A stretch of DNA of 64,000 nt, from contig NZ_CP009520.1 of the NCBI RefSeq assembly GCF_000969905.1, forward strand, positions 682,001-746,000, in the 5' to 3' direction. A program made the translations under genes and the position numbers. The notes beneath the pieces are model-generated. The model was not told where the DNA came from. It did not search any database and saw only the letters and a list, made by a program, of their open reading frames with translations. Of the stretch, positions 6,181-12,630 are shown in pieces (within the stretch, counting starts at the first letter, position 1; each line of letters starts with the position of its first letter). Source of the DNA: Methanosarcina vacuolata Z-761. GTDB lineage: Archaea > Halobacteriota > Methanosarcinia > Methanosarcinales > Methanosarcinaceae.

Positions 6181-6666
6181 TTATGTTGTCTTTACTACAA
6201 GTCCTTTAATTACATCTTCAGAGTACCAGACCAGAACCTCCAGTCGTTCCGAACATCTGCAAAAGGCATCCTGCACAGAAACCTGAGTGCCAGGACCGGG
6301 ATCGTCCAGATGCCTCCAGTCATCATTAACAAAGAGCCATAAACTTCTTTCACTGCCTGCAGGATAGGGCATCAGTTCAAGCCAGTACCGGGTTGCTATG
6401 CCGGTTTTCACAGCTACTCTACTTGGTTTGACTGCCTTCTGAACTTCCGGGGCACCTTGCATTTCTTTAGGGGCAGTCACAGATTCTGCTGGATTCTCTT
6501 TTTCTGCTGGATTCTCTTTTTCTGCTGGATTCTCTTTTTCTGCTGGATTCTCTTTTTCTACTGGATTCTCTTTTTCTACTGGATTCTCTGTTTTTGCTGG
6601 ATTTTCTGTTTTTGCTGGATTTTCTGTTTCTACTGGATTCTCTGTTTCTGCTGGGATATCTGTCAT
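6181..6666 (-). CDS. Repeat-bearing protein with conserved C-terminal domain
   Basis: The first half of this 161-residue protein (residues ~4-62) consists of about ten acidic hexapeptides of the type ENPAEK/ENPVET, encoded by an 18-bp tandem repeat. The C-terminal ~80 residues look like a folded domain (RYWLELMPYPAGS, LWLFVNDDWRHLDDPGPG, LEVLVWYSEDVIKGLVV). I do not recognise the family. The start is supported by AGGGGTC just upstream of the ATG. The repeat number is likely to vary between strains without changing frame, because the unit is a multiple of three. Confidence 0.7.
   Translation of the reverse strand: MTDIPAETENPVETENPAKTENPAKTENPVEKENPVEKENPAEKENPAEKENPAEKENPAESVTAPKEMQGAPEVQKAVKPSRVAVKTGIATRYWLELMPYPAGSERSLWLFVNDDWRHLDDPGPGTQVSVQDAFCRCSERLEVLVWYSEDVIKGLVVKTT
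6484..6650. repeat. 18-bp in-frame tandem repeat
   Basis: About nine to ten copies of a unit like CTGCTGGATTCTCTTTTT (plus strand) lie inside the gene at 6181-6666. They encode the ENPAEK-type hexapeptides on the minus strand. Confidence 0.9.
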
Positions 6667-8380: not shown

Positions 8381-8487
8381 ACATGATCACATCCTGAAAT
8401 TCCTGAAAATATTAAGAGTTTGATAAACTTATAACTAATTATTTTTATAAAAATTATTTTGTAAGGTTATTTATGGATTTGAGTTTT

Positions 8488-8632
8488 GTAAATTACTTTC
8501 TGTAAATTACTTTTTGTAAATTACTTTCTGTAAATTACTTTCTGTAAATTACTTTTTGTAAATTACTTTTTGTAATTACTCTTTGTAAACTACTTTTTGT
8601 AATTACTCTTTGCAAATTACTTTTTGTAAATT
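8488..8632. repeat. 14-bp tandem repeat between trpS and pheS
   Basis: About ten slightly varied copies of a unit like TTACTTTCTGTAAA. The array reaches the 3' end of trpS, so the last codons and stop of trpS (…IIYKK) fall in it. No gene lies in 8381-8616. Confidence 0.85.
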
Positions 8633-10092
8633 ATTTTGTACTCATCAAGTTGTTCCCTTGCAAGTTCCCGTTTCTCCTGATGGTCCTTGAGGAACTCGTA
8701 CATCTTCTCTGCCGCAAGCTGCTTGCATGAGCCGCACATCCTGGTTCCTGAGACGCATTCCTGCCTGATTTCCAGTAATTCCTCATCGTCCCCAAGAAGG
8801 TGAAAGAGCATCAGTTCGAAGACTGAACATTCATCAGGTTTTCCGCCAAGTTTTTTCTGTTCATCCAGGGTTACACAGCCGCCGGTCTTTGCTCTCTTTA
8901 CCTTTTTTGCGCCTTCTTTCGGATCGTCAGTCAGAGCAATATAACTGTCAGGGACGCTGCTTGACATCTTTCCTCCCTGCAGCCCACTCATAAAGCGGTG
9001 ATAGGTAGATGCGGGAGGAATGAAAGCATAGCCTTCGAATTCAGCGGATACTTCTGCCACGACTTCTTCCAGGATTTTCCTTATGATTTTCCAGACTCTT
9101 CTGAAAACGAAGTACTTTTCATAATCCAAAAATTCAGGTGGTTTAGCCTCATTAGCAAATTTAGCGATTTCCTGGATCTGGGTCATGAAGTATTCCCTTT
9201 TCTCAGGCTGGCTTATCTGTAAACTAAACCTTTCAAGGAATGCATAGTCAGGAATCTGAAGTACATCAATGTGTTCTTCATAGAGTTTCACTTTTCCTGG
9301 AATGCGTTTTTTAAGCTCCTGTAACGCTTGCTTCGGTGCTCCTTTGCCGCGCACGCTCAGGTATTTCTCGCCATTTGCGTTTTCTCTCTCCTCTACCCTG
9401 AACATACTCATCTTGCCTGCAAGCCCTCGCGTCAGCCGAAGGTGAGGGTCCTGGTCAGGCCCCACAGGCACCACAACCGGCTTTGGTCCCCCAAATTCTT
9501 CAAGCTGGGGTTGGAGAATATCGGCAGCCTGGGTTGCTACACTGATCATGTGAGATAGGTTTGTCTCTCCTGAAAAACCATAGATTGCACTCAGTTCCGA
9601 GAAATTGACCTTGACCCCTAGTTCAAATGCCAGGTCTTTGACACTATCACAGCCTGACTGAAAGTAAATAAGACCATCGGGCTTAAAACCGAGAGCTATA
9701 AGGCTTAATATGTATTCTTCTACCCCAATTTCCCTGCACTTCTGCCAGGAAAAACCGCGTACTGAGAAAGCCTCCCTGTCCGCAATCCCGACAAAAGATG
9801 AAGCTCCCATTTGCTGGTGCCAGATTATCTGGTCCATAACCATCTTGTGCCCGAGGTGAACCTTCCCTGAAGGCATAAAACCGTCCATAACCGAAAAAGG
9901 GGCACCTGTCCTCATGGCTTCTGCAATCTGTTCGTAATCACGGTGCCCGAAGATAACTCGTCTCCGCATATACATATGTGGGGAGGGGATTTCAGGAAGT
10001 ACATTATCAAATGGAGAAATCCCGAATTCTTCGAATAACTTGGAATAGTCATTAATCTCGCTTGAACTCCATGGGTCAAGTTTCTCAGTCAT
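8617..10092 (-). CDS. trpS: Tryptophanyl-tRNA synthetase
   Basis: This 491-residue class I synthetase charges tRNA-Trp. The HIGH-like motif is [10 protein letters not shown] (~residues 74-83) and the KMSKS-like motif is [10 protein letters not shown] (~375-384). The nucleotide-binding segment [19 protein letters not shown] sits between them. The C-terminal part has a cysteine cluster (CSVFELMLF…[12 protein letters not shown]) seen in archaeal TrpRS. The end of the gene lies in a 14-bp tandem repeat. The 10093-10390 interval upstream has no gene I can support. Confidence 0.93.
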
Positions 10093-10390: not shown

Positions 10391-11617
10391 TTACTTTTCG
10401 CAAACCTTTTCAAAAGGATAAGGCAGCTTTGCTCCTTTGGGAATCCTGTCAACAAACTCCATAAATTCCGGGTCGTGCATAGGGGCCAGATTTTTCTGCT
10501 TCTGGAAATAAGAGTAACTCCTGATTTTCTGCCAGGCCTCTTTTAAAGATTCCTCTTTTATATTCCCAAAACTGAAAGGCGGATAAGGGCCGGCTTTTGC
10601 ATCTCCGTCTACCGTTATATGCATCCAGCGCCTGCCTTCCATTGCACCCATCATCTGACCTTCAAAATAAGTATTTGCAAACATCCGCGGGCCGTCCGGG
10701 CTGGAATTTATCCTGTGGTACATCTCAAGGATGCTTTTCCTATCTTCGTCAGTGATTACAGGCTCATCCCTGGTTTTGGGCATTGCTTCCCAGACTGAAA
10801 ATTCATGGACTCCGAGTTCTGATGCAAGGTTATAGAGCGCAGGCAGTTCCTGTATATTTGAGGGAGACGCATGTGTTGTCATTACAACCATGAGCCCGGC
10901 TTCAAGTGCCAGTTTTATGGCAGAAACCGCCCTTTCGTATGCTCCACTGGAATTTCGGGCAGCGTCGTGTTTTTCAGGATCAGGTGAGTAAATCCCTACC
11001 ATAAGGGAATGGAGCCCGGCGTCTTTCAGGCGGGAAGCTGTTTCTGCTGAAAAGTCCGTACCCCAGGTGGAACAGTTTACTATAGCCCGCTTTTTGTCCA
11101 CATACTTTATCAGCTCAAAGACTTCTTCCCTCAGGAGAGGATCATTTTCAGTAAATGTGATAATGAAACTGCCGGATTCAAGGGCTTCATCAATTATTCT
11201 TTTTAATGTGCCGGTATCCAGCTCATCTGCAATCGTTCCTGGTGGATATCTCGAACTGTTCTGGCGAGTAAGTTCAATGGATACGGTTTCAGGAATGTAT
11301 TTTCCGAGAGCTATCTGTATTTCCGCAAAAATAAGACGTTTAAAGGCCGGGCTTGGGATCGGAGGGAGCCAGGCTGAGGCAATAACCTTGTCCTCCTCTA
11401 CAAGGGCTAGTTTTTCCTCTCTCAGGCGGGAATTCATCTTTTTCAGGATAGGGTTGAAAGCTACTTTCAGGGTCCCGTTTGCCGTAAGCTCCAGAATGTC
11501 CCCGGCATTCCTGAGGTTTACTGACAGCCCGGGCATTGAGAAAATTTCTATCTTTTTTTCCTCTGCCTGAACTTTTCTCAATGAAACTTCCGGTGTATCC
11601 TTTTTTTCAGAAGTCAT
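10391..11617 (-). CDS. Radical-SAM-like protein lacking cluster cysteines
   Basis: The overall layout of this 408-residue protein follows radical SAM/SPASM proteins: an SIELTRQ lead-in, a TIM-barrel-like run with GSFIITFTENDPLL, SLMVGIYSPDPEKHD, MVVMTTHAS and FSVWEAMP, and a C-terminal segment ending GPYPPFSFGNIKEESLKEAW. In true radical SAM enzymes the lead-in is followed by CxxxCxxC. Here those three positions are Asn120, Tyr124 and Gly127. The C-terminal stretch also lacks cysteines where SPASM proteins ligate a cluster. Only two cysteines remain in the whole protein. The frame is intact over 1.2 kb, so this looks like a maintained pseudoenzyme rather than a decaying gene. Function unknown; a binding or scaffold role is an inference. 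Confidence 0.75.
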   Translation of the reverse strand: MTSEKKDTPEVSLRKVQAEEKKIEIFSMPGLSVNLRNAGDILELTANGTLKVAFNPILKKMNSRLREEKLALVEEDKVIASAWLPPIPSPAFKRLIFAEIQIALGKYIPETVSIELTRQNSSRYPPGTIADELDTGTLKRIIDEALESGSFIITFTENDPLLREEVFELIKYVDKKRAIVNCSTWGTDFSAETASRLKDAGLHSLMVGIYSPDPEKHDAARNSSGAYERAVSAIKLALEAGLMVVMTTHASPSNIQELPALYNLASELGVHEFSVWEAMPKTRDEPVITDEDRKSILEMYHRINSSPDGPRMFANTYFEGQMMGAMEGRRWMHITVDGDAKAGPYPPFSFGNIKEESLKEAWQKIRSYSYFQKQKNLAPMHDPEFMEFVDRIPKGAKLPYPFEKVCEK

Positions 11618-11651: not shown

Positions 11652-11862
11652 TATTTAAAATCAACCCTTTTTAAAACAATCCTTTTTAAAACAACCTTTT
11701 TTAAAATAACCCTTTTTTAAAACAATCCTTTTTTAAAATAATCCTTTTTTAAAATAATCCTTTTTTAAAACAATCCTTTTTTAAAATAATCCTTTTTTAA
11801 AACAATCCTTTTTAAAACAACCTTTTTTAAAATAACCCTTTTTAAAATAACCCTTTTGAAAA
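11652..11862. repeat. ~16-bp tandem repeat, homopolymer-rich
   Basis: About thirteen copies of a unit like CCTTTTTTAAAACAAT with small length changes in the T and A runs. It lies between the radical-SAM-like gene (start 11617) and the aIF2-beta gene (end 12019). The remaining bases 11863-12018 show no gene. Confidence 0.88.
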
Positions 11863-12018: not shown

Positions 12019-12630
12019 TCAGGCTGCTCTCTCTGAGAAAGCGAGGTTTCCGCTGATTTTCTTTATTTTTACTTTGACCACGTCGCCTTTTGAGGCTCCG
12101 GGCACGAAAACCGTATACTTATCTATCTTTGCAATTCCATCGCCTTTGGACCCGACTGCATCGATCCGGAGTTCGTAAGTTCCTCCTTCTTCGATGGCAT
12201 CCCTGACAACCACATTGCTTACCTTTCTCTTTTTGACGGGTCTGTGAGCTCCGCACGCAGAACATCTCAGGATAAGTACTCTGTCCACCCTGACAAGCTG
12301 GGTGTCCGGGCGTCCGCATTCCGAACACATAACGTATTCGTCCACATAAGCCTGAATGTTATCAGAGATCTGGGCTCTCGTAAACCTTCCCTGGAAGACT
12401 GCGCGTGTGCCTTCTATTTTCCCTGCAGTCCCAAGTTCCCTTGTGAGATATTTCATCAAGTGGTCAGGGTCCCGGTTAAGGATATCTGCAATATTTCCGA
12501 AGTTCTCAAGAATTGTAGTCTTTCCTTCGGAAAAAATTCTGGGCTCAGGGATTACGAATCGAGCATCCGTAGTCTCGGTGTCAGGCATTTTTGCCATTGC
12601 ACGGTTCAAAAGCTCTTCGTAATCGTACAT
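12019..12630 (-). CDS. Translation initiation factor aIF2 beta with TRAM domain
   Basis: The 203-residue protein is the beta subunit of the archaeal initiation factor that delivers Met-tRNAi to the ribosome. Visible parts are the N-terminal helix, the central alpha/beta domain ([26 protein letters not shown]…), and the C-terminal zinc ribbon with CSECG (~102-106) and CSACG (~123-127). Beyond the usual end, residues ~145-203 form a TRAM domain ([19 protein letters not shown]…[16 protein letters not shown]), a fusion seen in methanogen aIF2-beta. It lies 35 bp after rpl10e in the same direction, so they are probably one transcript. Confidence 0.95.

Follow-up and report, generated by a model that had tools for sequence, protein, structure and literature searches.

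A radical SAM/SPASM-fold protein of Methanosarcina kept after loss of all its cluster cysteines, with a possible place in a methanophenazine-type lipid module

The closest described systems to the protein studied here, termed C, are radical SAM proteins with a SPASM domain. PqqE and related SPASM maturases of peptides and cofactors (6c8v, 6efn) have a partial barrel and SPASM domain like those of C, matching it with Z 22-23 over 254-281 residues, but sequence identity to PqqE and SkfB is 19% or less, both of these act on peptides, and C is without the cluster ligands. The heme b synthase AhbD (TIGR04545) belongs to the same superfamily, occurs in the same organisms and is the best NCBIfam match of C. 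Nonetheless, an assignment of C as AhbD is ruled out, given that it scores 108.8 bits against a cut-off of 500 and that the real AhbD is encoded elsewhere. TIGR04347, the 'pseudo-SAM/SPASM' of haloarchaea, is named as a pseudo radical SAM/SPASM protein of archaea; its cut-off is 525 bits, and C reaches 69.5. In the two above-threshold members that were read with certainty (L226 and L229), CNLYC[SD]HC is intact, which indicates that the family name may mislead; the loci read do not support this family as a cysteine-less precedent. Also close are two paralogues, A and B, which are found in the same genomes and share the domain layout of C, including its N-terminal domain. Unlike C, they keep CX3CX2C, GGE and the SPASM domain, and the genes around them suggest a prenylated redox lipid.

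The window is a stretch of 64,000 nucleotides of Methanosarcina vacuolata Z-761, in which C is encoded by an intact ORF of 408 aa at 10391-11617 (minus strand, as are all features of C given below). By profile and by its TIM-barrel-like fold, C belongs to the Radical SAM superfamily. The Radical_SAM profile (PF04055) matches residues 130-263 with 54.4 bits (cut-off 29.5) over profile positions 25-164; beginning only at position 25, the match leaves out the part at the head of the profile that binds the cluster. The SPASM profile (PF13186) matches with 23.0 bits (cut-off 21.5). Outside these Pfam matches, predicted secondary structure and alignments delimit a beta-rich/helical N-terminal domain (residues 20-105; 11303-11560) that is common to A and B. 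The three sites of CX3CX2C, the motif for the [4Fe-4S] cluster of a functional radical SAM enzyme, are Asn120, Tyr124 and Gly127, within a loop of residues 120-127 (11237-11260), and the motif is absent clade-wide. Likewise, the SPASM-like segment (10484-10645) matches its profile without auxiliary-cluster cysteines, which the alignment places at A325, T335, G343 and A378. The only cysteines of C, at 182 and 406, are both away from the cluster sites. In place of a GGE-type motif C has E157-N158-D159, which with P160 forms a remnant of the motif for the SAM amino group (11138-11149); this motif is GGEP or GGET in the paralogues and EGDP in the cysteine-bearing orthologues of C. An initial annotation, made from the DNA sequence alone, had read the frame as intact, the three cluster cysteines as replaced by these residues and the SPASM-like segment as cysteine-free, and all of these readings are borne out. 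Canonical radical SAM chemistry is not expected of C because the [4Fe-4S] ligands are gone.

The same annotation had proposed structure prediction as a check, and the barrel was obtained with high confidence. The AlphaFold model, built from C and related sequences, has a pLDDT of 88.3 and a pTM of 0.88, with values below 50 only at the N-terminus and in the former cluster loop (121-123 and 125-127). This loop is thus predicted to be disordered in C, while the predicted structure of a cysteine-bearing Methanolobus orthologue is ordered there, with no such low-confidence segment. Among solved structures PqqE is nearest (Z 23.0, 2.9 A over 254 residues), followed by SkfB (Z 22.6), and Foldseek agrees.

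Within the 100 nearest genomes, orthologues of C were found throughout the genus (31 of 31 genomes, M. vacuolata counted), in the remaining members of the family and in two further families. Named records carrying the gene include Methanosarcina, Methanolobus, Methanococcoides, Methanohalophilus, Methanohalobium, Methanosalsum, Methanomethylovorans and ANME-2/ANME-3. One orthologue (G116:C1:2816525-2817658) has two in-frame stops, from either sequencing error or decay. Family genomes with and without the cysteines have in common the gene order rpl10e - eIF2beta - (KaiC-like in some) - C - trpS - pheS, which makes these genes positional orthologues; in the gene tree C groups with them in a clade supported at 100/99. 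In the alignment the orthologues divide cleanly into forms with eight cysteines and forms with none. The CxCxCxxC and SPASM cysteines are retained in the other Methanosarcinaceae and in ANME-2a/b/c, with one SPASM cysteine changed to serine in part of ANME-2c, and CX3CX2C is also retained in a further, Methanothrix-like family of the class (f6). The cysteine-less state covers 37 sequences of Methanosarcina and near relatives and four of the sister lineages g9 and g10, which have small genomes and whose replacements differ from those of Methanosarcina. A few cysteine-less sequences (L062, L053, L054) have a stray cysteine at the middle motif position.

In a species tree of RpoA1 (RNA polymerase subunit A') all genomes with the cysteine-less form group together (support 99/98), as do the cysteine-less proteins in the fuller gene tree with paralogues and distant members (98/95). 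Judged from these trees and the alignment, all Fe-S cysteines of C disappeared once, before Methanosarcina and the small-genome sister group diverged from their common ancestor. Both trees favour this single loss over two independent ones, despite the weaker support (70) for the grouping in a quick gene tree. A strain-specific mutation or assembly error is also ruled out, since the state is common to the whole genus and its sister lineages. The substitutions, whose conservation among orthologues was a check set by the initial annotation, are therefore clade-wide and ancient; a mutation confined to this strain, which would have told against its reading, does not apply given that the cysteine-intact orthologues sit in other genera. 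Substitute ligands at the cluster positions are ruled out because the replacements vary (N/S/T, Y/N/L/F/C and G/E/V). No second intact copy of C was seen in Methanosarcina, with one match per genome at E<=1e-90. The small-genome sister group is probably the Methanimicrococcus/Methanolapillus gut clade, which has lost Fpo, Ech and Rnf and retained the methanophenazine chain (PMC11362671).

Selection on the cysteine-less C is purifying and somewhat relaxed. The median dN/dS is 0.114 in Methanosarcina (329 pairs), against 0.059 and 0.087 for the cysteine forms of Methanolobus and ANME-2a. Of 106 columns conserved in the cysteine forms, 76 are identical in Methanosarcina, and 25 of these 76 are specific to the orthologues, being unlike paralogue A (among them E115, T156, E157, D159, N181, Y210, T248, H249 and W276). 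The change is concentrated at the cysteines: all six cysteine columns that are at least 95% conserved in cysteine-bearing orthologues are replaced, versus seven out of 100 further columns of equal conservation (Fisher p = 1e-6). Two other positions are fixed differently. Residue 185, in a TWG sequence behind strand beta3 (11063-11065), is Trp in 41/41 cysteine-less rows and Pro in 68/69 cysteine-bearing rows, and residue 158 is Gly throughout the cysteine-bearing orthologues and the sister lineages and Asn in all Methanosarcina only. The gene is kept in all seven g9/g10 genomes sampled. Fixed pocket residues, purifying selection and retention in small genomes together support the view, already put forward in the initial annotation, that C is a maintained pseudoenzyme; with a clade-wide state, one loss, a dN/dS of about 0.11 and a predicted barrel, this is nearly certain. 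C is thus an unusual radical SAM protein, which has lost every cluster and yet been kept, and it can be compared directly with the cysteine-bearing orthologues that occupy this locus in sister genera.

C is the third member of an uncharacterised radical SAM/SPASM family made up of A, B and C. Paralogue A (L039, G000:C2:3827195-3828367) is 36% identical to C, has CPNRCIHC, GGE and the SPASM cysteines intact, and is present in nearly every genome of the class that carries C; one copy of A (G019:C1:242483-243553) has three in-frame stops, from either sequencing error or decay. In the Methanosarcinaceae loci read, with genes named from their sequence, A has a trans-prenyl diphosphate synthase gene on one side and the A1Ao ATP synthase operon on the other, and genes with heme-related names are found nearby in several genera. 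In the same arrangement, which also holds a heme cluster, MM_0789 is the C25 (GFPP) prenyl synthase, reported to be specific for methanophenazine (PMC3017947). Paralogue B (L220:7633-8769), intact in CX3CX2C, GGE and its SPASM domain, was found in genomes examined at the phylum level, in an operon behind genes for a UbiA-like prenyltransferase (137-148 bits) and for an FAD oxidoreductase; homologues of the latter from outside the class match a geranylgeranyl reductase (GGR) domain. In Methanosarcina C is adjacent to neither A nor B, and on the branch of the cysteine loss A shows no clear sign of compensation, with only three private fixed columns (68, 112 and 323).

Outside the class, in lineages f12, f18 and f22, genes of the three-member family, among them some of the C clade (100/98), are found a few kb or less apart, in clusters that also hold UbiA, GGR-like and NMT1-like genes and a further radical SAM gene. 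Lineage f16 carries family members as well. A compact radical SAM/UbiA/GGR-like/NMT1-like cluster is present in small archaeal genomes that have neither McrA nor an MqnE match above cut-off (L211-L217 and L224), where it is a candidate route to a prenylated redox lipid that has yet to be described.

The distribution of these genes was surveyed in 220 genomes of the class. In the 151 of high quality, C is present in 126, A in 128, UbiA in 126 and the GGR-like gene in 125. MqnE, of the menaquinone route, passed its cut-off in 29 genomes, which belong without exception to families f4 and f5; none of these 29 had a match listed for C, A, UbiA or GGR. A further f5 genome (G221, 67% complete) fits this pattern, having A, C, UbiA and GGR and no MqnE match. 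Family f5 resembles Methanoperedenaceae; 'Ca. M. nitroreducens' (ANME-2d) has menaquinone genes and no methanophenazine, while ANME-2a has probable methanophenazine (PMC5244752). An exception to exclusivity is a genome outside the class (G294, L219) with one B-like member together with MqnE and with four divergent McrA-like proteins. With few independent switches (f4/f5 versus the rest) and this exception, the link to methanophenazine is supported, short of proof.

Methanophenazine, the electron carrier of the respiratory chain in Methanosarcinales, is a phenazine ether of a C25 prenyl chain in which the first unit is reduced. This structure calls for a prenyl synthase, an ether prenyltransferase and a reductase, to which the genes described here would correspond. 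Its biosynthesis has been described as undeciphered (PMC8546582, PMC6315138), and in the literature searched no paper links radical SAM proteins to it. Given that the module genes occur where methanophenazine is expected, they are candidates for its biosynthesis: A, B and C, with UbiA, the GGR-like gene and the C25 prenyl synthase, probably form a module for a methanophenazine-type redox lipid, judging by their co-distribution and gene context. With its C25 prenyl-diphosphate synthase, UbiA-like protein and GGR-like flavoprotein, this module would make methanophenazine or a closely similar lipid; A, B and, where it bears cysteines, C would carry out the radical steps, acting on the head group or on a precursor of it. 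In Methanosarcina, C would retain the barrel and substrate-facing residues and serve A and/or B as a non-catalytic partner that holds an intermediate or stabilises a complex, and its former radical step would be either no longer needed or taken by A or B. Where the initial annotation named a general class (regulator, chaperone or substrate binder), this reading is narrower and makes C a non-radical partner within the three-member radical SAM set, a role that we assign to C tentatively, with slightly less than even confidence. The account as a whole, comprising one loss, the lipid module and C as non-catalytic partner, has about an even chance of being right. A bolder version is doubtful, in which these genes would be the missing methanophenazine pathway itself, a radical route to the head group without bacterial phz genes, and C a dead but required subunit. 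As the short list of co-occurring genes excludes the menaquinone route, the question of biosynthesis can be tested by genetics in M. acetivorans.

A shift to an unrelated role would likewise be in keeping with the slightly relaxed selection, and C may have been neofunctionalised as a non-radical regulator or sensor untied from the lipid pathway. A KaiC-like ATPase gene upstream of C in several cysteine-bearing Methanosarcinaceae hints at signalling, and in one locus (L214, 4045-6318) KaiC-like, KaiC plus Ras-like GTPase, and Roadblock genes stand directly upstream of the orthologue; the somewhat raised dN/dS and the separation of C from A and B in Methanosarcina point the same way. Nonetheless, the KaiC-like gene is not beside C in Methanosarcina or in some cysteine-bearing genera, the pocket residues are still conserved, and the distribution of C matches that of A, UbiA and GGR, which leaves such a regulator rather unlikely.

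A second alternative keeps the module and changes its product, which would be another compound, for example related to heme or archaeal lipids, that merely tracks the users of methanophenazine. Outside the class the clusters occur mostly in genomes without McrA, which means that the product there may indeed be another prenylated redox lipid, and AhbD as best profile of C and the heme genes near A are in line with a link to heme. The heme route, however, needs neither UbiA nor a prenyl reductase, and the true AhbD is encoded separately (L003, 528.8 bits). The GFPP synthase beside A is moreover reported as methanophenazine-specific (PMC3017947), and we consider this alternative a minor one, with roughly one chance in four.

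It is less probable still that the former active site of C continues to support catalysis of a non-radical kind that does not depend on SAM, such as an isomerisation or condensation. Its polar pocket residues E157, D159, H249 and E277 have remained strictly conserved after the cluster was lost, and W185 is newly fixed, but the ex-cluster loop is variable as well as predicted disordered, residue 158 differs between the two cysteine-less sublineages, and we know of no radical SAM barrel that has switched to such catalysis. That C is a decaying gene heading for loss is very improbable: the loss of all clusters, a dN/dS about 1.3-2 times that of the cysteine forms and long branches in the small-genome lineages would fit it, but it is largely refuted by purifying selection with a new fixed residue and by an open gene in every Methanosarcina genome and all seven sister-lineage genomes sampled.

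Within the window, C is flanked by its two conserved neighbours, both on the minus strand: downstream a trpS-like tRNA synthetase (8617-10092; PF00579, synteny) and upstream an ORF (12019-12630; synteny) named from its sequence as an eIF2-beta-like/TRAM protein. The true AhbD gene (G000:C2:678463-678936) lies about 3 kb before the start of the window and about 13 kb from the gene for C. An AT-rich tandem array of a 16/32-mer in about 13 copies (11654-11862) is found 37 bp upstream of the start codon of C. Two further arrays were observed, a 14-mer in 11 copies between pheS and trpS (8484-8637) and an 18-mer in 9.5 copies (6484-6654) within the ORF at 6181-6666.
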